DNA of 40,433 bases from a virus. The position numbers and the translations under genes were made by a program. Positions 604-33,860 of this stretch are shown here, piece after piece (positions within the stretch are counted from its first letter, which is position 1; each line of letters opens with the position of its first letter). Location: positions 1 to 40,433 of IMG/VR virus record IMGVR_UViG_3300008625_001155. The stretch is one strand, 5' to 3'. Below the pieces are notes generated by a model that made no database searches, was not told the DNA's origin, and worked only from the letters and a program-made list of their open reading frames with translations.

Positions 604-1062
604 TTACCCAGAAACGGCTTTTTCAACTGCATCATCTATGTCTTTAGGACGATCTTTTAGTTTTTGAAAGATATTCTTTTTCTTTGCGGCTAGTGGCGTT
701 TCTTCGTCATCTTTGCCTGTTAGTTTTTTATAACCAGCATATCCAGCACCTGCAAGCGCCGCAAGACTCCGAGCGGCGCCCGCGGCGTCCACGCGGGCAA
801 GCGCCGCAAGACCCGCCACTAGTGGCCAGCCTTCGTATAATGAGCCTTCTTGAATTTGACGCCTAATAGTAGCAGGGTCTTTGCCTGCCAATAACATGCC
901 TTCTTTGCCTTTCATATCTAAAGCATTGTCAGTAGGCTTCCACTTTTTAGTTGGTTTTTTGTTATTGTGTGCTACGTGCGGATTAGCAACGGTAGCGATA
1001 TTACCACTACTAGTGGCTTCTGGTGTTGCGGCTTCAAAGATTTCAAATTCTTTAAGTCTCAT
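604..1062 (-). CDS. Hypothetical protein, likely virion-associated, with an Ala/Gly-rich centre
   Basis: 152 aa. The N-terminus MRLKEFEIFE resembles the short leaders of two other genes here (MKITDILQES and MRIDEFVFG), a style common in marine T4-like structural or packaged proteins. Residues about 78-112 form an Ala/Gly-rich, membrane-like stretch flanked by Lys-rich segments. The DNA for that stretch is unusually GC-rich for this window and contains a 16-bp direct repeat spaced 45 bp, so the LAALA motif recurs every 15 residues. It has a T4-type late promoter and a probable leaderless start. Function unknown. Confidence 0.65.
   Translation of the reverse strand: MRLKEFEIFEAATPEATSSGNIATVANPHVAHNNKKPTKKWKPTDNALDMKGKEGMLLAGKDPATIRRQIQEGSLYEGWPLVAGLAALARVDAAGAARSLAALAGAGYAGYKKLTGKDDEETPLAAKKKNIFQKLKDRPKDIDDAVEKAVSG
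752..812. repeat. 16-bp direct repeat, 45-bp period
   Basis: The 16-mer GCAAGCGCCGCAAGAC occurs at 752-767 and 797-812. The 45-bp offset is 15 codons, so the copy is in frame within the Ala-rich segment of the 604-1062 gene. The local sequence is far more GC-rich than its surroundings. Confidence 0.8.
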
Positions 1063-1067
1063 ACTAT

Positions 1068-1075
1068 TATTTATA
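1068..1075 (-). promoter_or_regulatory. T4-type late promoter
   Basis: TATAAATA on the minus strand, five nt before the ATG at 1062. T4 late promoters consist essentially of this -10 octamer, with initiation about 5-6 nt downstream. Initiation would therefore fall at or beside the start codon, giving a leaderless mRNA. No Shine-Dalgarno is present. Confidence 0.7.
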
Positions 1076-1077
1076 CT

Positions 1078-1416
1078 TTATAGGCGTTTATATAACCACT
1101 GTGAAATAGGAATATACGGATAGTCGTCCCAATCTGAGTACGGTGCGTCCTTTAGTTTCTCGTCTTTAGTTTCTTTTTTATCGTGTGTTTCTTTGTCTTT
1201 TTGTTGAGGAATATGTTGAGAATTACTAATCATTTCCCATTCCTCTTCTGTGTAAGGCATATGTGCTACTTCTTTTTTCTCTTGTGCCTCTGTACTTAAA
1301 TCACGAGTAAACCCACACTTTTTACAAACATAAATGCGATGGTCTATGATGTAACTACTATTTCCCTCACATTGCGAACATTGTATAAGTGTAGATTTTT
1401 TTTCGTTTTTAGCCAT
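1078..1416 (-). CDS. Small zinc-ribbon protein
   Basis: 112 aa. Two CxxC knuckles (C13/C16 and C31/C34) form a probable four-cysteine zinc ribbon in the first 40 residues. The rest is hydrophilic and Lys/Glu-rich, ending in a Trp/Tyr-containing tail. The fold fits a nucleic-acid- or protein-binding accessory, but nothing identifies a partner. The ATG overlaps the end of the SpeD gene by 8 bp, so the two are probably co-translated. The zinc ribbon is seen directly; the role is unknown. Confidence 0.65.
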   Translation of the reverse strand: MAKNEKKSTLIQCSQCEGNSSYIIDHRIYVCKKCGFTRDLSTEAQEKKEVAHMPYTEEEWEMISNSQHIPQQKDKETHDKKETKDEKLKDAPYSDWDDYPYIPISQWLYKRL

Positions 1417-1846
1417 TGTTTAAGACATGATGGTCAGGTAACTCATCTTGTGAGTCGCTCCACTTTCCAACATGTTCCGTTTTAAACTCATGCTCTCTGT
1501 CTAAATATTTCCATTCAAGTTTTACTAAACCGAATTCTTGCAATTTCTCAAAAACTTGAATAGGTTTAAATGGCCCGCAAGTATAAACATCTAATTGAAG
1601 CAATGCTGGGTTTGGTTCGTCCCAAATATGCATTGCAATATGGCTTGTTTCAATGATTGAAACAACTGTGATGCCTGCGTTTCCTTCTACTTTCACATAC
1701 TCACAATGTGGACCTGAAAGTAATTTCATATCGATAGTTTTAATTAAATCTATCATCCATTGTTTTGTTTTTTCTACATCGTTCTCATCAGGAGGATTTG
1801 ATACTTCCGCTCTAATGATTAAATGTTTATGAATTGGCAATGCCAT
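1409..1846 (-). CDS. speD: S-adenosylmethionine decarboxylase proenzyme (SpeD-like)
   Basis: 145 aa. The family decarboxylates S-adenosylmethionine to the aminopropyl donor for spermidine synthesis, using a pyruvoyl group made by self-cleavage. The core block is present: E66-T-S68-H69 is the expected cleavage site, with S68 the pyruvoyl precursor, followed by HIW and the YTCG motif whose Cys90 is the catalytic acid. The length fits the small prokaryotic class. speD is a known auxiliary gene in marine T4-like cyanophages. No spermidine synthase is seen here, so the product probably feeds a host enzyme. Start ATG, weak AGGA upstream. Confidence 0.85.
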   Translation of the reverse strand: MALPIHKHLIIRAEVSNPPDENDVEKTKQWMIDLIKTIDMKLLSGPHCEYVKVEGNAGITVVSIIETSHIAMHIWDEPNPALLQLDVYTCGPFKPIQVFEKLQEFGLVKLEWKYLDREHEFKTEHVGKWSDSQDELPDHHVLNNG

Positions 1847-1857
1847 TATAATAATTC

Positions 1858-2049: not shown

Positions 2050-2055
2050 ATATGG

Positions 2056-2063
2056 TATTTATA
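2056..2063 (-). promoter_or_regulatory. T4-type late promoter
   Basis: TATAAATA on the minus strand followed by 6 nt and the ATG at 2049. Initiation is predicted at about the start codon, with no ribosome binding site between. Confidence 0.7.
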
Positions 2064-2079
2064 TAAAACAGTTTTTAGG

Positions 2080-3114: not shown

Positions 3115-3130
3115 CAAATTTCCTAAATCT

Positions 3131-3559
3131 TTAATATATAAAAATAGATATTATAGTATAAAATACTATAAACAACATTACATAATTCAATAAACGACTT
3201 GATGAGTGTCGCTTTTGAGGATGTAGAAGACCTTGTCTTTCTTCCCACGTTGTGTTTGCTTCTAATACTTGTGTAAAGTGTTCTACTTTAAGTCTACCTT
3301 CTAATATAAATTTACCAATTGCTTCTTGCAACTCTATACGCACAGGAAAAGGAAGTTGCAACTTATTAGTTGGCATTAGTGAAAAATTACGTGACCACTT
3401 ATCCCAAGGATCACCTTGTACACCTACTTGACTGTGTGCATACATATAGGTTTGTTCGTCAGTATAATTTTGGACACTACTAACAACATTAATAAGTTGG
3501 CAATCTGTTAAACCTTGTACTATGACTTCTTGAGCATTGTCTGAGTATGTTGTTTTCAA
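3131..3559 (-). CDS. Hypothetical protein with C-terminal membrane anchor
   Basis: 142 aa. A soluble region of about 120 residues is followed by a C-terminal hydrophobic segment (about 126-141, VMLFIVFYTIISIFIY), suggesting a tail anchor. The apparent start is TTG, overlapping the TGA stop of the upstream gene, so translation is probably coupled; the first in-frame ATG is about 38 codons further in. Family not recognised. Confidence 0.55.
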   Translation of the reverse strand: MKTTYSDNAQEVIVQGLTDCQLINVVSSVQNYTDEQTYMYAHSQVGVQGDPWDKWSRNFSLMPTNKLQLPFPVRIELQEAIGKFILEGRLKVEHFTQVLEANTTWEERQGLLHPQKRHSSSRLLNYVMLFIVFYTIISIFIY

Positions 3560-3957
3560 TGGAATGCACCTTTAATTTTAAGTTCTTCAAGTTTTTCAGC
3601 GAACATTTCTTTATCTTCTATACTCATATCTTCCATGAGTTGCTTTTCTGTCATAAACTTTTTTATTACTTTGGTTCTTTCAGTGTTTTCATCAAAAGTT
3701 ATTTCTGCTTCACCAAAGTCTAACTCTTCCTTAGGAATACGTGGCATTATTTTTAAGAACAAAATATATAACTGCAAATAAGTTTTGGCATAGACATAAG
3801 ATTGCTTCATAGCCTGCTCTTCAATTGAGTCATCAGGATTTATTTTCATATCTTCTTTGTTGCCGGGGTTTTCATGTAACCAATCTTCAAACACCTCTGC
3901 TACATCTGCATAGAGGTCAAGTTCTTCAGCAGTTATTTTAATTTTATCACCCATCAT
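3556..3957 (-). CDS. Hypothetical acidic protein
   Basis: 133 aa, acidic and predicted helical, with no signal peptide or membrane segment. Not recognised. The gene begins ATGATG. A GGTAAATA element lies 5 nt before the second ATG, but an AGGG that could serve as a Shine-Dalgarno overlaps it, so the start mode is ambiguous. The 3' end overlaps the next gene by 4 bp. Confidence 0.6.
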   Translation of the reverse strand: MMGDKIKITAEELDLYADVAEVFEDWLHENPGNKEDMKINPDDSIEEQAMKQSYVYAKTYLQLYILFLKIMPRIPKEELDFGEAEITFDENTERTKVIKKFMTEKQLMEDMSIEDKEMFAEKLEELKIKGAFH

Positions 3958-3970
3958 AGTATTTACCCTT

Positions 3971-4588: not shown

Positions 4589-4623
4589 AACTAATTTCCT
4601 TTAAGGTGATTAAAAGTACTATT

Positions 4624-4652: not shown

Positions 4653-4677
4653 GATTAACGAGATTTTTTAAGAAGGG

Positions 4678-5001: not shown

Positions 5002-5022
5002 ATGGAGCCCTACCAATTCTAA

Positions 5023-5710: not shown

Positions 5711-7780
5711 TTAACCAGTGCGTTTTGTGATCATTTCAGTGATATTAGCAGGGCACGGTGCGTAGTGACTAAACTCCATACTAAACTGACCACGGCCGCT
5801 CGTCATACCACGCAAGTCGCCAATATAGCCAAACATTTCACCAATTGGTGCTTCTGCCCAAATGCGTACCTTTTGTCCACTAACTTCTTGATTGCTAATC
5901 ATGCCGCGGCGTCTGTTAATGTCGCCAATAACGTCACCAACTTTATCCTCTGGAGCAATTACGTCAAGTTTCATGACAGGCTCTAGTAATTGTGGTCCTG
6001 CTTTAGGCATGGTTTGTCTAAAGCCACCTCGAGCTGCTAATTCAAACGCAATAGCACTTGAGTCAACTGCGTGTGAAGAACCGTCTGTTAATGTCACTTT
6101 AAAGTCTAACAACGGATAACCTGCTACAATGCCGTTATTAGCAGACTCTCTAAAACCTTTTTCAACAGCAGGCCAAAACTCTCTTGGCACATTACCACCG
6201 ACAACTTTTGATTCAAACTCAAAGCCGCCGCCTGATGGCAATGGCTCTATAGTATATTCAATATCACCAAACTGGCCAGAACCACCTGATTGCTTTTTAT
6301 GAACAAATTTGTCTTCCACTGTTTGTGTAATAGTTTCTCTGTATGCTACTTGTGGTTTACCAATACTTACTTCAATGCCATGGGTTCTTTTAAGAATGTC
6401 GCACTTAATGTCTAAGTGTAGTTCGCCCATACCCTTAAGAATAGTTTGCCCACTTTCTTGATCTGTTTCAACATGGAAGGACGGATCTTCAGCGACCATT
6501 TTACCAATAGCAGTTCCTAACTTATCCATGTCACCTTGTGTCTTTGGTTCAACAGCAATACTAATAACCGGGGCAGGGAATACCATTGGCTCTAGTACGG
6601 CGGGTTTATTTTTATCACACAGTGTATGACCTGTTTGTACAGTTTTCATACCAAGCAATGCAATAATATCGCCTGCTTGTGCAGAGTCCTTTTCTTCTCT
6701 ATTGTCGGCATGCATTTCTACAATACGGCCAACACGTTCGGACTTGCCTGTGCTACTGTTATAAATTGTATCACCTTTGTTAAGTTTGCCAGAGTAAATG
6801 CGTGTAAATGTCAATGCACCATACTTGTCGTCCATAATCTTAAACGCAAGTGCTCTTAGTGGTCTGTCATCATCAACAATAGCATGTTCACCTGTTTCAT
6901 TGCCTTCTAAGTCTACTTCTGGCTGTGGATCAACCTCAGTAGGATTAGGCAAATAATCAACCACGGCACTCAATACATTTTGTACGCCTTTATTTTTAAA
7001 TGAACTACCACAGAATGTTGGGAAGAAATCACAATTAATTGTACCCTTGCGAATACACTTTTTAAGATCTTCTTCGCTAATGCTGTCAGGATCCTCCATC
7101 CACTGCATCATTACATCGTCGTCTTGCTCTACAACTTGCTCTACCATTAGATCATAATATTCTTTGGCCTTGTCTGCCAAGTCTGCAGGAATGTCGCTAA
7201 TAGTGTAAGAAGTAGGATCTGCTGAATTTGACCAGGCCCATGCTTTTTGCGTAAGAATGTCTACAATGCCTACAAAATCATCTTCAGCACCAATTGGAAT
7301 AGCCATAATAACTGGTACTGCGTTTAAGCGATCTTTAATTTGCTCTACTACACGATAGAAATCTGCACCAACTCTATCCATTTTGTTAACGTAAATAACA
7401 CGGGCAACTTCACTGTCATTAGCATAACGCCAGTTTGTTTCGGATTGTGGTTCTACGCCTCCTACCGCGCAAAAAACACCAACGCCACCGTCTAATACTT
7501 TCAATGAGCGGTATACTTCAATTGTAAAGTCAACGTGTCCTGGTGTGTCAATAATGTTAAACTGGTGGTCATCCCAAAAGCATGTTGTAGCGGCTGACTG
7601 AATAGTAATACCGCGTTCCTGCTCTTGCTCCATAAAATCTGTAGTAGCGGCGCCGTCATGTACTTCGCCTATCTTATGGATTTTACCTGTTAGTTTTAAA
7701 ATGCGCTCTGTTGTTGTAGTTTTACCTGCATCAACGTGAGCGAAAATTCCTATGTTTCTATACTTTTGTAGATCTGACAT
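5711..7780 (-). CDS. fusA: Translation elongation factor EF-G
   Basis: 689 aa, full length for bacterial EF-G. EF-G is the GTPase that translocates tRNA and mRNA and, with RRF, splits ribosomes. All GTPase motifs are present: G1 AHVDAGKT (14-21), G2 RGITI (56-60), G3 DTPG (78-81), G4 NKMD (132-135). The C-terminal domains are intact ([40 protein letters not shown]). No truncation or lost catalytic residue is seen, so it should be active. It is flanked by phage-type genes, not by the usual rpsL-rpsG-tuf neighbours. It has both a sigma70 and a T4-late promoter, and a GGAG Shine-Dalgarno about 10 nt before the ATG. Confidence 0.97.
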
Positions 7781-7807
7781 TCTTATTGCTCCAGCAAAAA
7801 TTTCTTA

Positions 7808-7815
7808 TATTTATA
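7808..7815 (-). promoter_or_regulatory. T4-type late promoter of fusA
   Basis: TATAAATA on the minus strand, 27 nt before the fusA ATG. The leader that follows contains TGGAGC, so this late transcript, unlike the leaderless ones, carries a Shine-Dalgarno. Confidence 0.65.
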
Positions 7816-7825
7816 AGCAATAAGT

Positions 7826-7854
7826 ATTGTACACTATTATTATGGTAATGTCAA
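7826..7854 (-). promoter_or_regulatory. Sigma70 promoter of fusA
   Basis: Minus strand: consensus -35 TTGACA (7854-7849), 17-nt spacer, -10 TACAAT (7831-7826). It sits just upstream of the late element, so fusA should be transcribed both early by host polymerase and late by the phage-modified enzyme. Confidence 0.75.
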
Positions 7855-7858
7855 ATAA

Positions 7859-9490
7859 TTAGAAACCCCACCAATCACGTACTCCGGGATTAAATGACCC
7901 GCTGGTTGTTCCTGTTATTTTCTCAACTTGCCCATCGCTGTTAGGCACGGGAGTAGAACTGAAATATTTATACTTTATCCATTCTTTACATTTATGACCT
8001 CCAACAAAAATTTCTTGTTCATTATAAGCATCTAATTCTACTTTATATCCCCAGATATAAGCAATATAGTTTAGCACGTCTACAGTAGATTCGTTTGCTA
8101 ATTCTCTACCGCTTTTACCTCTGTATAAATGTAACAATAATGTTCTTTTATCATCATGATCAAAGTCTCTTACTTGTATATCTGGAATGCGATAGTTATA
8201 GTCATATTGTCTTGCTAATTCTTTGCGTATGCTCTTGTAACCAGCGTTGTTATGGATTGCTTTTACTTGATAATGTGGATCTTGCTTGCGGTCGCCAAGT
8301 TGGAACAATCTAAAATCACGTATAACTTTTGGAGATAAAAACTGTAGTATAAAACTCTCGTCCCTATAATTAGCAACGATGTCTAATGTAATCTCTTTCC
8401 AATTACCGCCAGCAACATCAGGAAACCATTCTTTATCTTCTTTTGTTGGCTCATCGCACATACGTTTAATGTCTTGAAAAATAGCAAAACCTAATGCATA
8501 TGGATTTATGCCACCATAATATGGTTTATCAAATGTAAGTTGGTTTAAAACGTTTGTGTGTAGTTTTAAAAACTCTAGCATACTTGCGTCACAAATCAAA
8601 CCTTTTTCATGTAAACGATTCATTGTATAATAATGCACAAAGCAAGCATATCCTTCGTTCATCACTTTTGTTTGTCCTTGCGGATAAAAATATTGTGCTA
8701 TCTTACGCACAATACGACATAATTCGCGTTGCCAATCTGTTAAATTAGGCGCGTTTTTTTCAAGGAAATATATAATGTTTTCTTCTGGTTTATCCAAATA
8801 AACATATTTTCTGTCTGTTTTCTTCTTTTCTTCCTTTTTACGTTTAATTACTGTTGTGTCCCATAACTCATTAACATGTTTGCGTAAGTATTCTGCCCTT
8901 TCACCCGCTTTCTCTGCCTCTGCATACGAATTAAGTTTTACTGGACGCTTATATTTGTTAATACCGTAATTACGAATAGAGTGTAATGCATCTAAAAATA
9001 GTTCTACTTCGTCTAATCCATATTTTTCTTCACACTTCTTAACAAAGTTTTTAGCAAATACAAGATAATCAATAATTGCTTCTGCGTTTGTCCATGTTTT
9101 AAACAAGTAGTTATTTTTAAAGAAATGGTTGTGGCCAAACGCGGCGTGAGCAATAACTAATGCTTGCGTGGTCATTGTATTCTCTTCCATGAGATAGTTT
9201 ATGCATGGATTACTATTAATAACGAGTTCGTATGCTAAACTAGTTCTACCTTTTCTGTATTGATTTTCATAATGTGACCATGCCTTACCATTGCTCCAAT
9301 GGTTATATGATAAGGGCATACCAATACTTGCATATGCATCTAACATTTGCTCAAACGTTACAACTTCAAGTTGGTTCGTGTAAGTATCGCAACCAAGTTC
9401 ATTAACTGCAATATCTTCGCAAGCATCGTAGATGTTACTTACAAGTTCAAAACTCCAATCATCTTGTTGTGTGAATAATAGTTTAGTCAT
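7859..9490 (-). CDS. spoVR: SpoVR family protein (YcgB-like)
   Basis: About 543 aa, full length for the family. Conserved blocks are easy to read: TYTNQLEVVTFEQMLDAYAS, INSNPCINYLMEENTM, IAHAAFGHNHFFKNNYLF, with the His-rich HAAFGHNHFF segment typical of the SpoVR core. In enterobacteria ycgB is functionally linked to the stress kinase operon yeaGH; in Bacillus SpoVR affects spore cortex formation. The biochemical activity is not established. The ATG at 9490 overlaps the end of the YeaH gene (a GTG lies one codon earlier), so the three genes form one operon with PrkA first. Confidence 0.93.
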   Translation of the reverse strand: MTKLLFTQQDDWSFELVSNIYDACEDIAVNELGCDTYTNQLEVVTFEQMLDAYASIGMPLSYNHWSNGKAWSHYENQYRKGRTSLAYELVINSNPCINYLMEENTMTTQALVIAHAAFGHNHFFKNNYLFKTWTNAEAIIDYLVFAKNFVKKCEEKYGLDEVELFLDALHSIRNYGINKYKRPVKLNSYAEAEKAGERAEYLRKHVNELWDTTVIKRKKEEKKKTDRKYVYLDKPEENIIYFLEKNAPNLTDWQRELCRIVRKIAQYFYPQGQTKVMNEGYACFVHYYTMNRLHEKGLICDASMLEFLKLHTNVLNQLTFDKPYYGGINPYALGFAIFQDIKRMCDEPTKEDKEWFPDVAGGNWKEITLDIVANYRDESFILQFLSPKVIRDFRLFQLGDRKQDPHYQVKAIHNNAGYKSIRKELARQYDYNYRIPDIQVRDFDHDDKRTLLLHLYRGKSGRELANESTVDVLNYIAYIWGYKVELDAYNEQEIFVGGHKCKEWIKYKYFSSTPVPNSDGQVEKITGTTSGSFNPGVRDWWGF

Positions 9491-10829: not shown

Positions 10830-10838
10830 GGTAAACCC

Positions 10839-12779: not shown

Positions 12780-12819
12780 AATCTTTGCTCCTGTGCTTTA
12801 TGGTTCTTTACTATATTTA

Positions 12820-16301: not shown

Positions 16302-16319
16302 CTGGTAATTACCTTTAAA

Positions 16320-16327
16320 TATTTATA
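16320..16327 (-). promoter_or_regulatory. T4-type late promoter, overlapping a divergent start
   Basis: TATAAATA on the minus strand, 18 nt before the ATG at 16301. The octamer overlaps the first base of the divergent plus-strand gene. On the plus strand TTTAAATA (16314-16321) lies 5 nt before the ATG at 16327 and may drive that gene. Confidence 0.6.
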
Positions 16328-16931: not shown

Positions 16932-16949
16932 AGAAGTATTTAAGTATGG

Positions 16950-22143: not shown

Positions 22144-22200
22144 AGTAATGTTTCCATCGTAAAGTTAATAAAGTACTATTGTATTTATGTAAATATTAAT

Positions 22201-23088
22201 ATGAACGATGATTTAAAAAAAGTCCGTAAAATGGATTTAGATGTACTAGACAAATTTCTACTAGAAAAAACAGATTATTCTAATGTAAAACCATTAAATT
22301 TAAAGTTTGATGTTATTTTTATGAGTTATTATGAAAAAGATGCTGATAAAAACTTTGAAACTTTAAAAAAACTAGTACCAAATGCAAAAAGAGTAAATGG
22401 CGTTACGGGCATACTCAATGCTTATAACGCATGTAGGGAATTGTCCGAAACAAAATTTTATTATATTGTCGAAGGAGACAATATTATATGTAATGATTTT
22501 GACTTTAAACTTCCTATTCAATGGTATAAAAACGTTTTGTACCATAATATTCGTGATCAAAAAGAAAATTCTATTCCGGTTGACATAGAAACAATTTATC
22601 CAAATTTATCAGTTATGTGGGATACAGTAAATCCTATTAACGGAGAAATTTTACCACACAGTCCAATAGGCTTTACATATAAATCTAATAAACCATATAT
22701 ATATTATCCAAAAGCTACCGCAGCTGATACATTTAAAGCGTCCGGAGTTCCTGTACGACGAATCGGAAGTATTGATGCATTTAATTCTTCTTCTTACGAT
22801 GCATGGAAGGCAGGCTTTAGAATAGGAAATAGACTTACTTATCAAATACTAAATATGAAGACACCCAAGCACGATACACTTTACCAAGAAGAAAGATTGC
22901 ACCATTGGGAAAGCGTAGGTTATGATCGTTATAACGGTAAATATTGCATAGAAGGTGTTAAGTTAGGAATGTCGTTAGCCTTGAAGGACGATAATTGGTG
23001 GCTAAAATATAGAGAGACGTCACAAAATTTTAATAATTTAAAAAATATTTTTAAAAAAGAGTATGGAACAGAGTATCACAATAACTGA
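22201..23088 (+). CDS. Putative glycosyltransferase (GT-A-like)
   Basis: 295 aa. Residues about 36-105 read as a GT-A nucleotide-sugar domain: FDVIFMSYYEKDADKNFETL, KRVNGVTGILNAYNACRELS, then FYYIVEGDNII where E-G-D takes the place of the DxD metal-binding motif. The remainder is not diagnostic. Surface or virion glycosylation is an inference. TGTAAATA lies 5 nt before the ATG with no Shine-Dalgarno (leaderless pattern). The next gene starts inside its last 26 bp. Confidence 0.45.
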   Translation: MNDDLKKVRKMDLDVLDKFLLEKTDYSNVKPLNLKFDVIFMSYYEKDADKNFETLKKLVPNAKRVNGVTGILNAYNACRELSETKFYYIVEGDNIICNDFDFKLPIQWYKNVLYHNIRDQKENSIPVDIETIYPNLSVMWDTVNPINGEILPHSPIGFTYKSNKPYIYYPKATAADTFKASGVPVRRIGSIDAFNSSSYDAWKAGFRIGNRLTYQILNMKTPKHDTLYQEERLHHWESVGYDRYNGKYCIEGVKLGMSLALKDDNWWLKYRETSQNFNNLKNIFKKEYGTEYHNN

Positions 23089-24559: not shown

Positions 24560-25351
24560 CTATGCAAACTGTTCTCCATATTCATCAATTGATTCAAAAT
24601 CATGCTCATTTGCTAACATCGCATTTCCATATTCAATAACCATTAACTTACATGCTTTGCGTTTGTTTTCATTACGCAATGCATGGAATTGACCCAATGG
24701 AATATAAAAATGTTGATGAGCGTCTAAATCACGTGATTTAATATTTCCTAATGTTTCTTCCCATGCATAGTCTACTATACATTGACCACCCATAACAAAC
24801 CAAAATTCACTTTTTCTCATATGGCGCCCAAAAGTCATTTGATGTTTGGGTTCCAAACTTACTTCTTTTACTCTACAATTACTATCTTGATATACAACAT
24901 TATAATAACCATAATCCGTATAACACATACCAAATTTATAATTACGAATCAATTGACTAGATGAAGTCTTCTTTTCAAAACCACCAACGCCAAAAATAAA
25001 CTCAACGTCTGCTATTGCTTGTTCAGGAACATTGGTGGTGTCTCTGTCACCCCCGTTGGCAAAAACAATTGTATCATTTGGATAATGTTCCTTTATTTTT
25101 TCTAATGCATGGATGGCAGTATTGTCTTTGTCATTAAATCCAACTACATCGTCTACTACTGAAAGACTATTAAGAATAAGTGCCCTCTCTTCAAAAAGCA
25201 TAAATGATCTACCTTTTTTACGAGAAAGCCACTTGTCACTGTTTAAAGCCACGATAAGTTTGTCGCCAAGTTTTTTGGCCTCATTAAATAATGCAATGTG
25301 CCCTTTATGAATCGGATCAAATCCGCCTGAGACTACTACTATCGTCGCCAT
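24560..25351 (-). CDS. Nucleotidyltransferase-cupin fusion (cytidylyltransferase-like + ManC-type cupin)
   Basis: 263 aa in two modules. Residues 1-135 form a cytidylyltransferase-like domain with H15-K-G-H18 (HxGH) and a C-terminal TSSSQLI that fits the ISSTxI motif, as in HldE-C or glycerol-3-phosphate cytidylyltransferases. Residues about 150-245 resemble the cupin of type II mannose-6-phosphate isomerases (HMRKSEFWFVMGGQ, HFYIPLGQFHALRN). It may make and channel an activated sugar for the glycan genes nearby (inference). A consensus sigma70 promoter lies upstream, and GAATAAATA also lies 5 nt before the ATG. Confidence 0.75.
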   Translation of the reverse strand: MATIVVVSGGFDPIHKGHIALFNEAKKLGDKLIVALNSDKWLSRKKGRSFMLFEERALILNSLSVVDDVVGFNDKDNTAIHALEKIKEHYPNDTIVFANGGDRDTTNVPEQAIADVEFIFGVGGFEKKTSSSQLIRNYKFGMCYTDYGYYNVVYQDSNCRVKEVSLEPKHQMTFGRHMRKSEFWFVMGGQCIVDYAWEETLGNIKSRDLDAHQHFYIPLGQFHALRNENKRKACKLMVIEYGNAMLANEHDFESIDEYGEQFA

Positions 25352-25388
25352 ATTAATATTTATTCGTAATCTATTTTACTGTACTATA

Positions 25389-25417
25389 ATTATATATTAC
25401 ATTACGGTCATTGTCAA
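25389..25417 (-). promoter_or_regulatory. Consensus sigma70 promoter
   Basis: Minus strand: -35 TTGACA (25417-25412), 17-nt spacer, -10 TATAAT (25394-25389). Both hexamers are perfect consensus. It drives the cytidylyltransferase-cupin gene and probably the FmdB and HAD genes beyond. The -35 overlaps the last bases of the SbmA-like gene. Confidence 0.8.
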
Positions 25418-26436
25418 GAAATAGCGTATTTGTTTAGATTGCGCTCGAATTCGCTCAAACGTTTATATATTGAACGCAATTCTGTAATTGTTGTCCAGTT
25501 ATGCAAGAATAATGCAAACCCACCATGTACTTTCTGGAACGCATTTGACACTTGCACTACTACACCTAATAATACAGCACCAGTAAACAAACTTGGACCT
25601 ACGATTAAGTAAGGCACAATAACCATTGCTTGATCATACATAATCATCCATGTGTCAAAATATCCATAGTGTAAGTACAAACGTTGATAGTTGAAACGTA
25701 TGCCTGTGAATAAACTTGCTAATGTTTCTGGTTGTGCATAGTTTACTTTGTCATCTTCACCAAACACTAAATCCTTTCTAAATGCGGCTTCGACACGTTG
25801 ATTGTTATATTCAAGTCCGGGCAGTTTAATACCTACAAACCATGAAATAACCAACCCGCCTATAGATACAAATAATGCTACCCATACAAGTGAGCCAGGA
25901 ATGTCGCTAAAGAATGGAATAGTAACTGAAGAACTTAACCCCCACAGCACTGGAATAAACGCAACGAGTGTCATTAACGCCCGCACAACTTGCAATCCCA
26001 AACTTTCTACAATTCTAGCAAACCGATTGCAGTCCTCTTGAATACGCTGTGATGCACCTTCAATTTCTTCTTCAACATTGCGCCAACGCGGAATGTAGTC
26101 AAAGGTCATTGCCTCTCGCCAACGGAGTCCGTATATGCGTGTAAACCACCCAGTGAGCACCGCTAACAGCACATATGGAAATGCTAATACAGCAAATGAG
26201 GGATCACCATCACTAAAATATTGTAAGCCTAGTAATTTTTCATAAAATAAAGAAATGCCTTCACTGGCATTATTTTTATATTCACCAGACTTTTGTAGTA
26301 AGTCATAAAATCCACCATACCATGTGTTTATCGCTACTGTTAATTGAACTTGTAACCATAACGATATAACTAATAGAGAGCCACCGCCATAAGCCCATAG
26401 TGCCCATTTCTTAGTTTTATAAAATGCTTTTATCAT
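25414..26436 (-). CDS. SbmA/BacA-like peptide transporter
   Basis: 340 aa with about six to seven hydrophobic segments. The family core reads clearly: LTGWFTRIYGLRWREAMT, DYIPRWRNVEEEIEGASQRIQEDCNRF, and NAFQKVHGGFALFLHNWTTITELRSIYKRL. SbmA/BacA are inner-membrane, proton-driven importers of peptides, microcins and related compounds. The protein is shorter than E. coli SbmA (about 406 aa), mostly at the ends, and has no ABC ATPase domain. Its ATG overlaps the previous stop (ATGA). What it would import for a phage is unknown. Confidence 0.85.
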   Translation of the reverse strand: MIKAFYKTKKWALWAYGGGSLLVISLWLQVQLTVAINTWYGGFYDLLQKSGEYKNNASEGISLFYEKLLGLQYFSDGDPSFAVLAFPYVLLAVLTGWFTRIYGLRWREAMTFDYIPRWRNVEEEIEGASQRIQEDCNRFARIVESLGLQVVRALMTLVAFIPVLWGLSSSVTIPFFSDIPGSLVWVALFVSIGGLVISWFVGIKLPGLEYNNQRVEAAFRKDLVFGEDDKVNYAQPETLASLFTGIRFNYQRLYLHYGYFDTWMIMYDQAMVIVPYLIVGPSLFTGAVLLGVVVQVSNAFQKVHGGFALFLHNWTTITELRSIYKRLSEFERNLNKYAIS

Positions 26437-27053: not shown

Positions 27054-27473
27054 TTAATTTAAATTGAAATTGTTACATACATTATGTTCTTCACAATCTT
27101 TAATAGAATTTTTAGCAACGTCTATTGCTTTTTCTAGCATTGCGAACCAATGTTCAGCGTCGATATAACCAACCCATCTTACAATTTCTCGCTTTTTTTC
27201 TTCGTCCCATATAAAGAACGTAGGAGTGGCATAAAGTTTTTTTATTTTGCCGTCACGATAGTATTGAATATAATCTAAGTTTTCAATAATACCATGTGTA
27301 ATGTTAATTTCTATCAAAGGAAGATACGAATCTAATTCTGGAGTATAGAGTGGCTGTACTTGTGCCTGCCATGCGCGACACGACGGACACCAATCTGCTT
27401 CTACAACAAATAGTTGTAAACTATACGCTGTTGTTGGTATTAATAATAACAAGAATAATAATAATTTTCTCAT
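27054..27473 (-). CDS. Exported thioredoxin-fold protein
   Basis: 139 aa. A signal peptide (RKLLLFLLLLIPTTAYS, cleavage near 18-19) is followed by LFVVEADWCPSC with the redox pair C29/C32, and a cis-Pro-like ATPTFFIWD near residue 85. This is a periplasmic thioredoxin-like protein related to SoxW/DsbE types. Two further cysteines near the C-terminus (DCEEHNVC) could form an extra disulfide. It may maintain disulfides in the exported phage proteins of this region (inference). AATAAATA lies 4 nt before the ATG (leaderless pattern). Confidence 0.78.
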   Translation of the reverse strand: MRKLLLFLLLLIPTTAYSLQLFVVEADWCPSCRAWQAQVQPLYTPELDSYLPLIEINITHGIIENLDYIQYYRDGKIKKLYATPTFFIWDEEKKREIVRWVGYIDAEHWFAMLEKAIDVAKNSIKDCEEHNVCNNFNLN

Positions 27474-27477: not shown

Positions 27478-27497
27478 TATTTATTATTTAATAAATA
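27478..27497. promoter_or_regulatory. Divergent pair of T4-late-like promoters
   Basis: Minus AATAAATA (27485-27478) lies 4 nt before the ATG at 27473, and plus TAATAAATA (27489-27497) lies 6 nt before the ATG at 27504. The 30-bp intergenic space therefore holds two elements and no Shine-Dalgarno on either side. Confidence 0.55.
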
Positions 27498-27503: not shown

Positions 27504-27737
27504 ATGGACGATGGCATAATAGACTTTGACAAAATATTGAAGTTAAAGAAGAAAAAACAACAAGAAATTGAAGAACTTCGTACAAGAATTAAAGAATTAA
27601 ACAACAACAAATTTTGGATTGAAAAGGAAATTCAAATAGCCGAGTTTCTCATTTTTTCTATAGAAAAAGAAATTGCGCCCGGGGCAGTTGTAGCTGCATT
27701 AATCGAAAATGAGTTGAGAGATCTTGATGAAGAATAA
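27504..27737 (+). CDS. Small coiled-coil protein
   Basis: 77 aa, with a Lys/Glu-rich heptad pattern at about 8-40 (FDKILKLKKKKQQEIEELRT) indicating a coiled coil. Not recognised. ATG at 27504 is preferred over an in-frame TTG 6 nt earlier because a late-like element sits exactly 6 nt upstream. The next gene starts inside its last 11 bp. Confidence 0.55.
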   Translation: MDDGIIDFDKILKLKKKKQQEIEELRTRIKELNNNKFWIEKEIQIAEFLIFSIEKEIAPGAVVAALIENELRDLDEE

Positions 27738-28311: not shown

Positions 28312-28795
28312 CGGGGTTTGAAAGGAAACGATCTTTTTCTAGGCCATACTTGTCTAATATATAGTAATATAAATCTACATATTTTTCATAATGCAGTATT
28401 TCGTAATCTCTGCCGCGCCCATCTTGCGATCGTTCTAGCCATGTTTCTGGATTTGCTGATCCTTTTGACCTGTTAATAGAAGAACATGCCGGAACATGAT
28501 TTTCCGAATCATTAGCAAACTCTACCCAAAGTTCTTTTGGTAATCCTAACTCACATGCTTCTTTTAAACTTACAACATGGTCAATGTCAATACCGTCGCA
28601 TAGTGGATGAACACCTCGTTCATAGCCTGTATACCAACCATGTGTTGCATCACTTGAGTAGGATCGAAAGTTAAATTGTTCTCTAACGTTAGTACAACCT
28701 TCAACACACGCAACCGCATTAATGCTTGCGTATGTTAGTAAGCCTAATAACCCTAATACTAATATAACATTTTTAATAATATTTCTTGTTATCAT
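28304..28795 (-). CDS. Exported HNH / His-Me finger nuclease-like protein
   Basis: 163 aa. An N-terminal hydrophobic segment (VILVLGLLGLLTYASINAVA) acts as signal peptide or anchor. The catalytic region shows D72-H73-V-V, then W..FAND..N (90-99) and INRSKG (107-112), the pattern of GmrSD/DUF1524-type HNH nucleases. Four to five cysteines suggest disulfides outside the cytoplasm. A secreted nuclease could degrade incoming rival DNA or external DNA (inference). Its ATG overlaps the stop of the SGNH gene upstream. Confidence 0.7.
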   Translation of the reverse strand: MITRNIIKNVILVLGLLGLLTYASINAVACVEGCTNVREQFNFRSYSSDATHGWYTGYERGVHPLCDGIDIDHVVSLKEACELGLPKELWVEFANDSENHVPACSSINRSKGSANPETWLERSQDGRGRDYEILHYEKYVDLYYYILDKYGLEKDRFLSNPAN

Positions 28796-29577
28796 GAATA
28801 CATACTTCCATATAAATCTAAATAAGGTACTAACACATTTTTACACCAGTCACAATGACCTTCATAACTCGGATGCATCCCGTCTTCATAGAGGGTAATA
28901 TTTTTATCTATAGACCATTGCAGTATGCTTTTTTCTAGAGGTATTACTTTAATATTAGAATATCTATGTAAAAAATCCAATGTTTGTGGGTACATCTCGT
29001 CTTTGTATTCTCCATACCAATCCCAACCAAAATATAATATTATTTCTTTGACCGTATTAGACCATAAGCCTATATTAACAAGCGTTTCTTGCAAATGATA
29101 AATTGTTCGGGTAAGGCAGCCAAATTTCATTTCATAATGAAATCTTTGATTGTTTGCTCTAATACTTATTGCTTTCCTGTTAAAAATACTCCATTCTTCT
29201 TCAGTATAACTTTTTAGTTTATTGTGATAGAACCACATCCAATCCCAGTCAGGTTTCTTCTCAACGTCGTCTTCCCCATATTTAAGACCATGAAACTCTA
29301 CATCTTGATCGTCATTCAATAGATAAAAAAGTCTATCTGGCGCTGTTAACTGCCAAAGTAGTGTGGTATCTTTATTAATTAAATTTTTTGCATAAAGATT
29401 AGATAATCTATGGTGTTGTAAATAATTGTCTCCACCGCCTTGTGAAATATGTTTAATATCTAAACTATAGGTACCATTTAAATAGTGCACATAGCCGTGC
29501 TGTTGAGTTAAACTACATCCTGTTAAACTACATCCTAAAGCAACATATTTGTAAGGCGTTTCTTCTTTCGTTTCCAT
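28792..29577 (-). CDS. SGNH-like protein (2)
   Basis: About 261 aa. Block I is ALGCSLTG (Ser near residue 18), an Asn is in GGGDN (about 48-52), and the C-terminal DGMHPSYEGH gives the Asp and His of an SGNH catalytic site. It is a distant relative of the 20227-20988 protein. The start is taken at the second ATG (29577) because ACTAAATA lies 5 nt upstream of it; an ATG two codons earlier is possible. It is the first gene after the tmRNA and is coupled by ATGA to the nuclease gene. Confidence 0.6.
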   Translation of the reverse strand: METKEETPYKYVALGCSLTGCSLTQQHGYVHYLNGTYSLDIKHISQGGGDNYLQHHRLSNLYAKNLINKDTTLLWQLTAPDRLFYLLNDDQDVEFHGLKYGEDDVEKKPDWDWMWFYHNKLKSYTEEEWSIFNRKAISIRANNQRFHYEMKFGCLTRTIYHLQETLVNIGLWSNTVKEIILYFGWDWYGEYKDEMYPQTLDFLHRYSNIKVIPLEKSILQWSIDKNITLYEDGMHPSYEGHCDWCKNVLVPYLDLYGSMYS

Positions 29578-29590
29578 ACACATATTTAGT

Positions 29591-29847
29591 GGGGGCGACT
29601 TTGTTAAGAAGGTGTCGCCCCCGAAACCCCCTACGCGACCGCTAATTAGGCGGCTAATGCGTAATCGTAATAATCGTCATTTGCAATTATATAGTTTGCT
29701 GTTTTTTAATATGGAACTGCTCCCATATGTCGTCCATTTATCCTCTTCACCCTGTCGAAACTGTGTCACCCCCGTAAAAAATTTGGTGGAGGTGCCGGGC
29801 ACTGCCCCCGGGTCCAGAATGCGTACTTTCAACTTCATACGACAATC
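29591..29847 (-). ncRNA. ssrA: Circularly permuted (two-piece) tmRNA
   Basis: Read on the minus strand. The acceptor part comes first and ends in encoded CCA (29786-29784); after a 10-nt AT-rich linker the coding part begins GGGGGTGAC (29773). The 7-nt ends GGGGGTG and CACCTCC pair to form the acceptor stem, with discriminator A. The T-stem is CCGGG/CCCGG with a 7-nt loop. The tag frame (29684-29646) encodes ANDDYYDYALAA then TAA, ending in the degradation signal ALAA. A 9-bp GC-rich hairpin (29622-29591) closes the gene. tmRNA rescues stalled ribosomes with SmpB, which is not encoded here. Confidence 0.92.
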
Positions 29848-29852
29848 AAAAT

Positions 29853-29860
29853 TATTTATA
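29853..29860 (-). promoter_or_regulatory. T4-type late promoter of the tmRNA
   Basis: TATAAATA on the minus strand, with predicted initiation near 29847, about 60 nt before the encoded CCA. The tmRNA therefore appears to be its own late transcription unit, separated from bL33 by a terminator. Confidence 0.7.
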
Positions 29861-29872
29861 TAGGTGTAGAAG

Positions 29873-29902
29873 AATAAAGGAATACCTGAGCATTCCTTTA
29901 TT
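29873..29902 (-). terminator. Hairpin terminator after bL33
   Basis: Perfect 11-bp arms AATAAAGGAAT/ATTCCTTTATT with an 8-nt loop. The upstream arm on the minus strand overlaps the bL33 stop codon. It ends the ExbB-to-bL33 operon just before the tmRNA promoter. The T run after it is short and broken. Confidence 0.6.
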
Positions 29903-30397: not shown

Positions 30398-30411
30398 AAT
30401 CAAATCCTATA

Positions 30412-30579: not shown

Positions 30580-30602
30580 AATAAGCTCCTTTAAAATATA
30601 AG

Positions 30603-30902
30603 TTATTTATCCGCTTCTACTTTAACTTGTAGCGGATAATTATTATTTCGTGCCAAAAGTGTCACTTCAATACCGTGTTGTTCAGCAATTTCATATGGCA
30701 AAATAGCAACAATAGCAGAACCTTCTGCATCTACTTTATATGTTAGTTCTTGTGCTTCTTCTAATGTGTGGCTAAACACAGTCATAAGAACATTAACAAC
30801 AAAGTCCATTGGTGTTACATCATCATTGATGAATATAACTTTATACAATGATGGCTCTTTTAAATCTAATTGCTTTTTAATCTTGGTTGCAGTATCAGAC
30901 AT
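30603..30902 (-). CDS. clpS: ClpS-like protease adaptor with altered N-degron pocket
   Basis: 99 aa. ClpS delivers N-end-rule substrates to ClpAP. The fold is clear: YKVIFINDDVTPMDFVVNVL, then AILPYEIAEQ and YPLQVKVEAD. The NDD triplet (26-28) and gating Met32 are kept. The conserved His that holds the substrate amino group (H66 in E. coli, in V-H-x-x-G) is Asp58 here, and the pocket Met62 equivalent is Thr54. Binding specificity is therefore probably changed, or the protein competes with host ClpS (inference). The ATG overlaps the upstream stop (TAATG). Confidence 0.9.
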   Translation of the reverse strand: MSDTATKIKKQLDLKEPSLYKVIFINDDVTPMDFVVNVLMTVFSHTLEEAQELTYKVDAEGSAIVAILPYEIAEQHGIEVTLLARNNNYPLQVKVEADK

Positions 30903-31465: not shown

Positions 31466-31467
31466 AA

Positions 31468-32298
31468 CTAATTAGTTCCCTCTTGTTGCCATTTTCTCAA
31501 TTGAGTTGTCATTCCATCCCATAGACTAGGATCATATGTATCACCAATTGCCATAGGATGATTGCCATTATCGTCTTCAAAGTGTGTTAACCCATCTGTA
31601 TATACAAATGGTGTCGGATGATTATTAACGTATTCTATAGAATATGTATAACTTTGGGTACCGTCTGGGGTTGCGATTCCATTCTCTCTTTGTACAACTG
31701 TAAAGTTAAATGCAGTAACTTCTTCGCCAGTTTCTGTCATTTCAAATTTGGCAGTAGTAATTTCTTTAAACGGATTTACTCTTACTAATTCAACTGTTAC
31801 AGGTATTGGATATTTGGGAGGATTTGGAGATATGTCCTCAGGATTATCTGCTCCCGTGTATCCGGAAAGTCTTGACCGATGTGCATAATAGTGTACATTA
31901 ACTGTCCATTCACCTGGAATCCAGCCACGTATAGTAGCAACTTCAACATTTTCATCTACTGCTACTATAGTGCCGTCTGCTAACATAAGTGTATCGTTTG
32001 CCGCGCCCAAATCATCTCTATCTAAATGCATTAAGCCTGATGTGCGCGATTTAAAACTAACAACATTACCTTCAGGATCTTTTACCCACAAGTCAATATC
32101 ACTGTAATTGCCAACTTCCCAAGTCAATGTAATAATTAGTTCAGACTTAGGGTCTATTTTTTTATTCGTAGGTATAGGAGGTTGTATTAGCAAAAAAGAG
32201 ATAACAAACAGAAATACGAAACCTACTAATGTATTAAAAAGTAGATCAGTAAATCCTAGTCCTGAAAATTTTGATCGCTCACGCTTTCCTGTGGTCAT
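31468..32298 (-). CDS. ExbD/TolR-like protein with beta-sandwich periplasmic domain
   Basis: 276 aa. A single N-terminal membrane segment (about 19-40) starts GFTDLLFNTLVGFVFLFVIS; Asp18 is placed like the ion-coupling Asp of ExbD, TolR and MotB. Instead of an OmpA/peptidoglycan-binding domain, the rest is beta-rich, including SDIDLWVKDPEGNVVSF, which resembles D-x-D-L-x-V-x-DP-x-G sandwich domains (YfaP/DUF2135-like). With the adjacent ExbB/MotA-like protein it probably forms an ion-driven stator unit. The gene overlaps that partner by 20 bp. The load it drives is unknown. Confidence 0.65.
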   Translation of the reverse strand: MTTGKRERSKFSGLGFTDLLFNTLVGFVFLFVISFLLIQPPIPTNKKIDPKSELIITLTWEVGNYSDIDLWVKDPEGNVVSFKSRTSGLMHLDRDDLGAANDTLMLADGTIVAVDENVEVATIRGWIPGEWTVNVHYYAHRSRLSGYTGADNPEDISPNPPKYPIPVTVELVRVNPFKEITTAKFEMTETGEEVTAFNFTVVQRENGIATPDGTQSYTYSIEYVNNHPTPFVYTDGLTHFEDDNGNHPMAIGDTYDPSLWDGMTTQLRKWQQEGTN

Positions 32299-32749
32299 AT
32301 TCTAAGTTTATCAATTGAAGTTTTGAAAGTAACGAACACGTTAAACCCACCAATGTAGTAGTTAATGCTGTACTCATACCAGCAGCCATGTCGCGAATGA
32401 CTTCTTTTGCCTGTCCGATGTTTGATAAATCTAGATCGTTAAACGAGCCACCAAGCATTATAATAAATCCAGTTACTGTTCCAATTAGTCCTAGTGATAC
32501 CATCGACTCGGCGAAGAACCAAGATACTTCTATAGATCTAAAGTTTAATGGTTTGCGTTTAGAAACTTTGTATGTTTGTAACCCTATATTGGCTGTTACG
32601 CCTGTAAACAATGCTATAATAAAGAAACTAATTTTTGTTTGGTCTAAATACCAAAGAGTACGCCACATATCAAAATAATATAATACTGCGGCACTACATG
32701 CTATTACGCAGGTCAATAACCACCACTTTAAGAAACTATTAGACTTCAT
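32279..32749 (-). CDS. MotA/TolQ/ExbB-like proton channel protein
   Basis: 156 aa with four hydrophobic segments. The family core is clear: ESMVSLGLIGTVTGFIIMLG (81-100) followed by a short loop and GMSTALTTTLVGLTCSLLSK (124-143), equivalent to the pore helices of TolQ/ExbB. There is no long cytoplasmic tail. The start is ATG 32749, five nt after CATAAATA, rather than a longer reading of the frame that lacks any start signal. It is the first gene of an operon running through the ExbD-like protein, ClpS and bL33. Confidence 0.8.
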   Translation of the reverse strand: MKSNSFLKWWLLTCVIACSAAVLYYFDMWRTLWYLDQTKISFFIIALFTGVTANIGLQTYKVSKRKPLNFRSIEVSWFFAESMVSLGLIGTVTGFIIMLGGSFNDLDLSNIGQAKEVIRDMAAGMSTALTTTLVGLTCSLLSKLQLINLEYDHRKA

Positions 32750-32754
32750 TAATA

Positions 32755-32762
32755 TATTTATG
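32755..32762 (-). promoter_or_regulatory. T4-late-like promoter of the ExbB-like operon
   Basis: CATAAATA on the minus strand followed by 5 nt (TATTA) and the ATG at 32749, with no Shine-Dalgarno. On the plus strand TATAAATA (32777-32784) lies 8 nt before the radical SAM ATG at 32793, so the 43-bp gap is a divergent late promoter pair. Confidence 0.6.
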
Positions 32763-32792
32763 TAAAAGAATATTATTATAAATATTTGTACC

Positions 32793-33860
32793 ATGCACGA
32801 CAAAAAGTTCTTTTGTATAGAGCCTTTCGTAAGTCTTTCTATAGTTAAAGAAGATCATATTTTTCCTTGTTGTCTTAATGAAGGGCAAAAAAGCACTCAA
32901 AAAGATGACCTATGGAACGATCCTTATCTTGAAAATATACGAAAACAAATTCTAAACAACGAAGTTCCTGAAGAATGTCGCGCCTGTGTTGAACAAGAAA
33001 AGTTTGGTCGATATAGCAGACGATTACATTCTAATGATGTTTGGTTAGAACAACACGGCAATTTTGAAGATGCTCTTGAAAATGATGCTCCGTATAAGTT
33101 AGATTTTTGGACTGGAAACTTGTGTAATTTGGCTTGTAGTACTTGTACATATACAAATAGTTCATCATGGTTTACACTTCTTAAAAAAGCAGATAAAGCA
33201 GGAAAAACTGATTTACGTTATAAAGGAAACTATGTAAGTAATTTAGATTACTCTTATGAATTTAAAAAAGAAGATATTCCGAATATTGACTTTAAAAATA
33301 TGGAAAATATACACTTCAACGGCGGTGAACCCTTGCTAACAGATTCACACTTTAAAATTTTAAATTTAATTCCGCCAGAACAAAGAAAGGATGTTTATGT
33401 CATTTATAACACAAACGGTACCGTCAGAATAGATTTAGAAGATGAAAAATGGAGTATTTTCAAAGAATACAAAAGTGTCGATATGTGTTTTAGTATAGAT
33501 GGCATTGAAGAAACATTTAATTATGTTAGATGGCCTGCTAAATGGGAAGAAGTACAAAGCAACATTGATCTATGGGCTGAATATTGTTATGGAAAATATG
33601 ATGACTGCCACTTTGAAATGAGTGTAAACATGGTAAAAACTCCGCACAATTATACAACGTTTGATAATGCCGTTAAATATGTCACTGATCGTTGGTTTAC
33701 CAAACTTATTGCGATTCGAAACGCAAGCATTGATGAATATGTGTTTACTACTAATGATCATTCTTTTATGGATTGGTCAGACGCACAATTTGAAGAATAC
33801 ACAAAGACAGAAGAATTTTTCTTGCAAACAAAAAATTTAGAAACACTACGAAATCTTTGA
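32793..33860 (+). CDS. Radical SAM protein, twitch/SPASM type (second copy)
   Basis: 355 aa. The cluster motif C111-x3-C115-x2-C118 (CNLACSTC) and FNGGEP are present, as is the N-terminal cysteine set (C8, C26-C27, C62 and C65) shared with the 14345-15664 protein. The C-terminal part differs, so the two probably act on different substrates. Function unknown. A TATAAATA promoter lies 8 nt upstream of the ATG with no clear Shine-Dalgarno. Confidence 0.85.
   Translation: MHDKKFFCIEPFVSLSIVKEDHIFPCCLNEGQKSTQKDDLWNDPYLENIRKQILNNEVPEECRACVEQEKFGRYSRRLHSNDVWLEQHGNFEDALENDAPYKLDFWTGNLCNLACSTCTYTNSSSWFTLLKKADKAGKTDLRYKGNYVSNLDYSYEFKKEDIPNIDFKNMENIHFNGGEPLLTDSHFKILNLIPPEQRKDVYVIYNTNGTVRIDLEDEKWSIFKEYKSVDMCFSIDGIEETFNYVRWPAKWEEVQSNIDLWAEYCYGKYDDCHFEMSVNMVKTPHNYTTFDNAVKYVTDRWFTKLIAIRNASIDEYVFTTNDHSFMDWSDAQFEEYTKTEEFFLQTKNLETLRNL

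Follow-up and report, generated by a model that had tools for sequence, protein, structure and literature searches.

Late boxes at start codons of the window

The DNA analysed here (the window) is a 40,433-base virus record from IMG/VR (IMGVR_UViG_3300008625_001155), in which copies of TAAATA, the core of the T4 late promoter box TATAAATA, lie immediately before start codons. A preliminary description had listed ten starts with the element 4-6 nucleotides (nt) upstream of ATG and two with it at 8 nt, and had read them as predicted leaderless late mRNAs. All 12 sites are present with the individual spacings reported there, and a thirteenth (start 3954, minus strand, gap 5) was absent from that list. 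Gap denotes the number of nt between the last A of TAAATA and ATG; boxes at gaps 4-6 are termed leaderless-type and those at gaps 12-40 leadered. The sites, followed by two leadered late boxes for contrast, are:

1068..1075, minus strand: late box TATAAATA, gap 5 to ATG 1062 (gene 604-1062)
2056..2063, minus strand: late box TATAAATA, gap 6 to ATG 2049 (gene 1858-2049)
3960..3965, minus strand: TAAATA, gap 5 to ATG 3954 (open reading frame 3556-3957), with a weak AAGG
16316..16321, plus strand: TAAATA, gap 5 to ATG 16327 (gene 16327-16707)
16937..16942, minus strand: TAAATA, gap 5 to ATG 16931 (gene 16704-16931)
22190..22195, plus strand: TAAATA, gap 5 to ATG 22201 (gene 22201-23088)
25357..25362, minus strand: TAAATA, gap 5 to ATG 25351 (cytidylyltransferase-like gene 24560-25351)
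27478..27483, minus strand: TAAATA, gap 4 to ATG 27473 (thioredoxin-like gene 27054-27473)
27492..27497, plus strand: TAAATA, gap 6 to ATG 27504 (gene 27504-27737, divergent from 27054-27473)
29583..29588, minus strand: TAAATA, gap 5 to ATG 29577 (gene 28792-29577), at the 3' edge of the transfer-messenger RNA (tmRNA) gene
32755..32760, minus strand: TAAATA, gap 5 to ATG 32749 (MotA/ExbB-like gene 32279-32749)
32777..32784, plus strand: TATAAATA, gap 8 to ATG 32793, with a predicted leader of about 3 nt
37101..37106, minus strand: TAAATA, gap 8 to ATG 37092, with the same caution as 32793 (predicted leader of about 3 nt)
7808..7815, minus strand: leadered late box TATAAATA of the elongation factor G (EF-G) gene 5711-7780, gap 27, GGAG present
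12814..12819, minus strand: leadered late box of the PrkA gene 10839-12779, gap 34, AGGAG present

None of the 12 listed sites has a Shine-Dalgarno match, defined in the window as at least three letters of TAAGGAGGTGA holding GG or GAG at positions -20 to -4, in agreement with the preliminary description. That description had set these sites against fusA, prkA and hsp20 as genes with Shine-Dalgarno sites and other promoters or longer leaders. Its Shine-Dalgarno sites hold for fusA and prkA, both of which also have a leadered late box; fusA combines the box at gap 27 and its Shine-Dalgarno site with TTGACA-17-TACAAT, and hsp20 has TTGACA-17-TATAAT at gap 66 and TAAGGAGG.

Five back-to-back pairs of late boxes lie between divergent genes (16316-16327, 22182-22195, 27478-27497, 32755-32784 and 38375-38388). 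In the overlapping pair at 16316-16327, the box at 16316-16321 shares bases with a minus-strand TATAAATA at 16320-16327, which is 18 nt from the start at 16301 (minus strand, with AAGG), thus joining a leaderless-type start in one direction to a leadered start in the other.

Within the window, TAAATA is not enriched (67 copies found against 82 expected), and TAAATA-N3-12-ATG occurs 22 times against 15.9 expected, a number reached by 12 of 100 shuffles. Because this window-only pattern is weak, the claim that the arrangement is not due to chance could not rest on the window, and its significance comes from anchoring on gene starts genome-wide.

Spacing of box and start codon across genomes

The PrkA and EF-G genes of the window are 100% identical to those of the 201,690-base record G001, a longer record of this phage that also contains the leaderless-type genes of the window. 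Relatives include G002 (322,647 bases), G003 (158,042 bases) and G010 (578,292 bases), as well as G004 and G005. A T4-type portal is encoded in six of 12 records tested (G001, G002, G003, G004, G005 and G010), and the large terminase of G001 shares 53% identity with that of the Pseudomonas jumbo phage PA5oct and 52% with that of the Sinorhizobium phage Phosso; by these sequence criteria, G001 and its relatives are T4-related large phages.

Gene starts were called with a single caller blind to the motif (longest ATG open reading frame, codon log-odds), and counts were compared with 300 rounds of dinucleotide shuffling. A sharp peak at gap 5, the check proposed in the preliminary description, was found in G001, where the box lies at gap 5 in 18 of 204 genes, at gap 4 in two and at gap 6 in four (shuffle mean at gap 5 0.58, maximum 3). 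Equivalent gap-5 peaks occur in G003 (21/186 genes; shuffle mean 0.40, maximum 2) and G002 (27/377; mean 0.83, maximum 4), and in each of the three records TAAATA at gap 5 outnumbers every other combination of hexamer and upstream position. Fourteen rearrangements of its letters occur at gap 5 in 0-3 genes of G001 and at most 5 genes of G002 (vs 27), and single-mismatch variants of TAAATA give no peak there. As a control, the first internal in-frame ATGs of the G001-G003 genes have the box at gap 5 in 3/190, 1/177 and 4/357 cases; these are probably true starts for which the caller placed the start too far upstream. The site set is real and strongly non-random. Gap 8 shows no peak in G001 (2/204 genes), so the sites at 32793 and 37092 are less certain than the others. 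A second, broad hump of TAAATA lies further upstream, at gaps 12-40.

The two positions differ in their translation signals. Across G001-G003, a Shine-Dalgarno match of at least 4 precedes 8 of the 87 genes with boxes at gaps 4-6, 54 of 92 with boxes at gaps 12-40 and 262 of 573 without a box; leadered late-box genes thus often carry Shine-Dalgarno sites. When in-frame triplets at gap 5 are counted in the seven phages with the peak (see below), 117 of 182 are ATG, one is GTG and one is TTG, a ratio that the ATG-only caller favours; the same count in seven leadered phages gives ATG in 8 of 92.

Box and spacing are constant in the G001-G003 pairs inspected, and flanks and spacer letters vary. 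Of 19 leaderless-type genes of G001 with a partner in G003, ten keep the class, against nine of 93 box-less genes having the class in G003; with G002, 13 of 20 keep it. The box of the cytidylyltransferase-like gene 24560-25351 is kept in G003 within diverged flanks, and the G003 orthologue of gene 22201-23088 falls in the same class via an alternative start.

Predicted start of transcription

The T4 late box is described as spanning -13 to -6 (PMC1524935), roughly one turn of the helix ahead of the start site (PMC2988020). With this geometry, a gap of 5 would set +1 on the A of AUG. The letters around the site are consistent with such a start: the base before ATG at gap 5 is a pyrimidine in 60 of 66 sites in G001-G003, compared with A 76, T 74, C 18 and G 18 in the other genes of G001. 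In leadered late promoters of ten genomes, a purine stands at box+6 in 267 of 354 cases, at box+5 in 179 and at box+7 in 216 (hand sums), the preference at box+6 being weak in P-SSM2 (36/56); this purine appears to be an initiator at the same place as the A of gap-5 starts. At the gap-5 sites themselves, the leading TA of the box is relaxed, with the full octamer in four of the 18 sites of G001 and A at -12 in 30 of 66, and no conserved position was seen between -35 and -12 when the counts for the 66 sites were judged by eye. Most phages are reported to have a relaxed -13, and Aeh1 to have C at -12 (PMC1524935).

A second promoter class shows a similar placement. Sigma70 promoters of the form TTGACA-16/18-TATAAT have their mode at gap 6 (four genes in G001, four in G003 and seven in G002); at other gaps below 12, these records have four at gap 7 (G002), one at gap 1 and two at gap 11. 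The following starts have a sigma70-type -10 box ending 6-7 nt before ATG:

G001: 133588, 150560
G003: 72579, 87045
G002: 139411, 201143, 210827, 247484, 286456

Elsewhere, sigma70 promoters at gap 6 number two in HTVC008M, two in P-SSM2 and one in G005; T4, PA5oct and the parts of G008 and G010 lack them. A sigma70 gap of 6 would give the same predicted +1 on the A as a late-box gap of 5, and the presence of such promoters in G001-G003 suggests that the strategy is wider than late genes. The strongest argument for a start on the initiation codon is that two promoter classes of different box geometry would converge on the same nucleotide; +1 on the start codon is thus predicted from box geometry together with the pyrimidine at -1.

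Occurrence in related phages

The peak at gaps 4-6 is also present in G005 (10/262 genes), the isolated SAR11 phage HTVC008M (13/178), part of G010 (14/216; 59% GC) and part of G008 (11/231; 56% GC). No gene has a box at these gaps in T4 (0/243) or in the 200-kb parts taken for KVP40 (0/316), 121Q (0/345), Atu_ph07 (0/252) and Phosso (0/247), and PA5oct, with 1/346, was scored without a peak. All seven phages scored without the peak, P-SSM2 included, have boxes at gaps 12-40 (21 to 52 genes). Comparable AT content occurs without the peak (T4, 35% GC; 121Q part, 34% GC). In the G008 and G010 parts (56-59% GC), the spacer often ends in GG directly before ATG (e.g. TAAATACGGGATG).

By raw pattern, TAAATA-N5-ATG has matches in 11 of the 12 IMG/VR records, with a clear excess in G001, G002, G003, G008, G010, G011 and G012 and a smaller one in G004-G007; G004, G006, G007, G009, G011 and G012 were judged by this pattern only. 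Counts against the reversed control are 25/4 in G001, 46/7 in G002, 27/4 in G003, 28/0 in G008 and 40/0 in G010, compared with 3 vs 3 in Vibrio phage 2.275.O and 8 vs 11 in Munch, both likewise judged by raw pattern only. Among 80 IMG/VR loci picked by their terminase (59-84% identity; L227-L306), the box lies at gap 5 in 111 of 1137 genes, spread over 66 of the 80 loci, where 100 shuffles gave a mean of 2.4 and at most 7; the base at -1 is a pyrimidine in 109 of the 111 (T 90, C 19). Gap 7 appears to be a second preferred spacing in this set, its 35/1137 genes standing above gap 6 (22) and gap 8 (11). Gap 5 occurs in 27 of 759 genes in 80 loci picked with the HTVC008M terminase and in 44 of 1666 in a PrkA-selected set (near-duplicate records included); of 121 PrkA relatives found in IMG/VR, 80 were kept.

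The terminase tree has 56 rows, of which 31 carry the label leaderless, 7 leadered and 18 none; the labels of IMG loci rest on few sites. It covers loci with at least 17 called genes, and KVP40 is absent because no large terminase gene turned up in its 200-kb part. At least four label changes are needed, three of them forced by well-supported branches. Leadered PA5oct and Phosso/Atu_ph07 adjoin leaderless branches, to which 121Q is external. HTVC008M stands well apart from the other leaderless branches and close to leadered P-SSM2; T4, Atu_ph07, PA5oct, G008 and G005, among others, sit on long branches and are placed with uncertainty. The arrangement is thus found in separate branches of the tree, which fits several gains or losses.

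Genes served and late transcription machinery

In G001, 28 proteins have a box at gaps 4-8, and the ten that were scanned include the large terminase, a baseplate wedge, a PAAR protein, a head-tail adaptor (neck protein) and a weak small-terminase match. The gene after the portal, also in the set, presumably holds the place of gp67 in T4 (gp numbers partly by position). In HTVC008M, all 12 gap-5 starts coincide with RefSeq starts, and the genes they open include those for head closure and the end protector, for wedge subunits and, in the tail, for the tube cap, tape measure and completion proteins. The late box precedes virion genes (G001, HTVC008M) as well as non-virion genes, and because not all box genes are virion genes, late timing is inferred from the box. 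A gp55-family sigma factor is encoded in G001 at 61068-61883 (phrog_12791, 8.9e-79), and gp55 was found in nine of 14 records (G001, G002, G004, G005, G010, HTVC008M, PA5oct, T4 and P-SSM2).

Interpretation and alternatives

These phages are best explained as carrying T4-type late promoters placed to start transcription on the A of AUG, yielding predicted leaderless mRNAs (probability about 0.86). The box would act as the gp55 'TATA' box in the -10 position, with no -35 element, and a fixed transcription start 6 nt after it would fall on the A. Host RNA polymerase with the phage gp55-like sigma would then begin the transcript at AUG, and ribosomes would initiate at this 5'-terminal codon without Shine-Dalgarno pairing; in other late genes this box lies 12-40 nt upstream and would give a conventional leader, often with a Shine-Dalgarno site. 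Box use, timing, the position of +1 and ribosome engagement are the inferred parts of this explanation.

The likeliest of the unlikely alternatives accepts the late promoter and places its start a few nt before AUG, giving a 1-5 nt leader or slippage. Gaps 4, 6, 7 and 8 do occur, the terminase-picked loci have the 35 genes at gap 7, and a leader of 1-3 nt is possible at gaps 6-8, including the window starts 2049, 27504, 32793 and 37092. Against it, the late-box mode is exactly 5, the base at -1 is almost always a pyrimidine (the 109/111 above) and the sigma70 mode is exactly 6, and both modes predict +1 on the A. Somewhat less probable again is that the element acts in translation, as an AU-rich enhancer or through stop-restart from an upstream TAA, and is not a promoter. 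Its closeness to AUG and its initial TAA would suit this reading, and of 100 gap-5 genes in seven phages, 13 have a TAA that is the stop codon of the upstream called gene; the other 87 are not upstream stops and 22 of the 100 have a divergent upstream neighbour, on which grounds stop-codon coupling is rejected for most sites. A general translation signal also fits poorly with the failure of rearranged and single-mismatch hexamers to form a peak, with the leadered hump that the identical hexamer makes alongside Shine-Dalgarno sites, and with its absence at this place in T4 and the examined parts of KVP40, 121Q, Atu_ph07 and Phosso, and it leaves the sigma70 boxes at gap 6 unexplained. That the pattern arose by chance in AT-rich DNA, or from miscalled starts, is barely credible: the raw counts in the window alone are not significant, but the shuffles, the rearranged hexamers, the peak in a relative of 59% GC and the lack of one in AT-rich T4 and 121Q all argue against chance, and the coincidence with RefSeq starts in HTVC008M argues against an artefact.

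Several observations weigh against late promoters that start on AUG, or limit how far they extend. Leadered boxes equal or outnumber leaderless-type ones: G001 has 24 genes at gaps 4-6 vs 29 at gaps 12-40, and G005 has 10 vs 42. The genome-wide strategy put forward in the preliminary description therefore holds for the gap-5 peak and does not extend to a rule for all late promoters; its overall interpretation is supported. Sigma70 promoters of G001 are likewise mostly leadered (four at gap 6 vs 14 at gaps 12-60). A gap of 4 is incompatible with +1 exactly 6 nt after the box, so that start choice must flex by 1 nt, and the GG spacer ending of the GC-rich relatives is unlike that of other phages. 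The class is poorly kept over distance: of eight genes compared between G001 and the more distant G005, one keeps it and five are leadered. In the 80 terminase-picked loci, the terminase gene itself has a box at gaps 4-7 in only 40, the remainder comprising 34 with no box, four leadered and two with no start found. PrkA-bearing record G009 has no TAAATA-N5-ATG by raw pattern; conversely, P-SSM2, scored leadered, is borderline with 5/284 genes at gaps 4-6, and the 121Q part has four genes at gap 7. The genes served are not uniformly of the late kind, since the gap-5 genes of HTVC008M also include an oxygenase, a curli gene, a cyclase and a regulator, and the window's own leaderless-type genes are accessory or unnamed (scans against PHROG and Pfam name few). 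As for the machinery, gp55 was not found in G003, G006, G007, G008 or G009, records that may be incomplete. In G001, gp33 and gp45 were not found with T4- and KVP40-derived seeds (T4 gp45, regA and rpbA and KVP40 gp33 gave no match at E 1e-3), a negative that does not prove absence at this divergence; both were found in HTVC008M.

Phage bS21 and tmRNA

Two further window genes bear on translation:

34471..34782, minus strand: ribosomal protein bS21 (Pfam PF01165, 4.4e-16), with an N-terminal extension and a GGAGG Shine-Dalgarno site
29588..29882, minus strand: permuted two-piece tmRNA of alphaproteobacterial type (Rfam RF01849, 83.7 bits; RF04321, 121.8 bits; ARAGORN tag ANDDYYDYALAA)

The window bS21 is a candidate partner of altered initiation. 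A bS21 gene is present in all seven phages with the peak and in three of the seven without it (PA5oct, Atu_ph07 and Phosso), and bS21 was consequently rejected as a marker specific to the arrangement. The best 80 of its 210 relatives in genome_contigs come from mixed phyla at 37-61% identity and do not decide the host. Alphaproteobacterial-type tmRNA scores above the cut-off in eight of 14 records (G001, G003, G004, G005, G008, G010, HTVC008M and Phosso) and below it in G002, which has the peak, PA5oct and Atu_ph07. The tmRNA type points to alphaproteobacterial hosts for several of these phages; as Phosso is leadered and has this tmRNA, host class alone does not set the arrangement.

Phage bS21 has been proposed to select late phage transcripts (Chen et al. 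2022; PMC9723584), and leaderless late mRNAs would be a natural target for such selection. One might speculate, tentatively and with more doubt than confidence, that late translation is taken over through sigma-directed leaderless mRNAs paired with a phage bS21 (often with tmRNA) that would shift host ribosomes to leaderless AUGs. On this scheme, the Shine-Dalgarno-led bS21 would be made first and would then open the ribosome to the leaderless class over Shine-Dalgarno mRNAs.

Other genes of the window

The minus-strand region 5711-12779 carries the EF-G gene and then PrkA (10839-12779), the latter name being taken from the preliminary description; between them, 9483-10829 looks like YeaH and 7859-9490 like SpoVR. 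Further genes are:

25414-26436, minus strand: SbmA/BacA-type transporter
30603-30902, minus strand: ClpS adaptor
1409-1846, minus strand: S-adenosylmethionine decarboxylase

Comparison with known systems

Leaderless mRNAs are known from lambda cI transcribed from PRM, from mycobacteria and from the late genes of phiKZ. The mRNAs predicted here resemble these in that a promoter would set +1 on AUG, in the lack of a Shine-Dalgarno site and probably in the use of AUG as start; they differ in that the promoter is of T4 late type and that virion and packaging genes are included. Phage transcripts have been called 'often leaderless', yet the same source gives AR9 leaders of 26-491 nt (PMC5312081). 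The late box and the leaderless mRNA are each known, and their combination across T4-related phages was not seen in searches of open-licence literature; earlier reports elsewhere are possible.

The bS21-encoding large phages of Chen et al. (2022; PMC9723584) are alike in combining bS21 with late virion genes. They differ in their predicted Bacteroidetes hosts, and the main text of that paper is without the words 'leaderless' or 'promoter'. Here, bS21 stands alongside boxes placed on AUG, and three leadered phages have bS21 too. The arrangement offers something concrete against which the role of phage bS21 can be examined.

With T4 itself, these phages share the TAAATA core of the late box, the lack of a -35 element, the presence of virion genes among those served and a gp55-family sigma. 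T4 differs in having no box at gaps 4-6 in its 243 genes, in boxes that lie mostly 12-29 nt upstream and in a Shine-Dalgarno match of at least 4 in 70% of genes. Gene finders that depend on Shine-Dalgarno sites may err in genomes of the present kind, in which start codons could be corrected from the box, and the arrangement yields predictions at one-nucleotide precision. Textbook T4 late boxes lie well upstream of Shine-Dalgarno-led starts, whereas several T4-related groups, including HTVC008M, appear to fuse the late promoter with the start codon.

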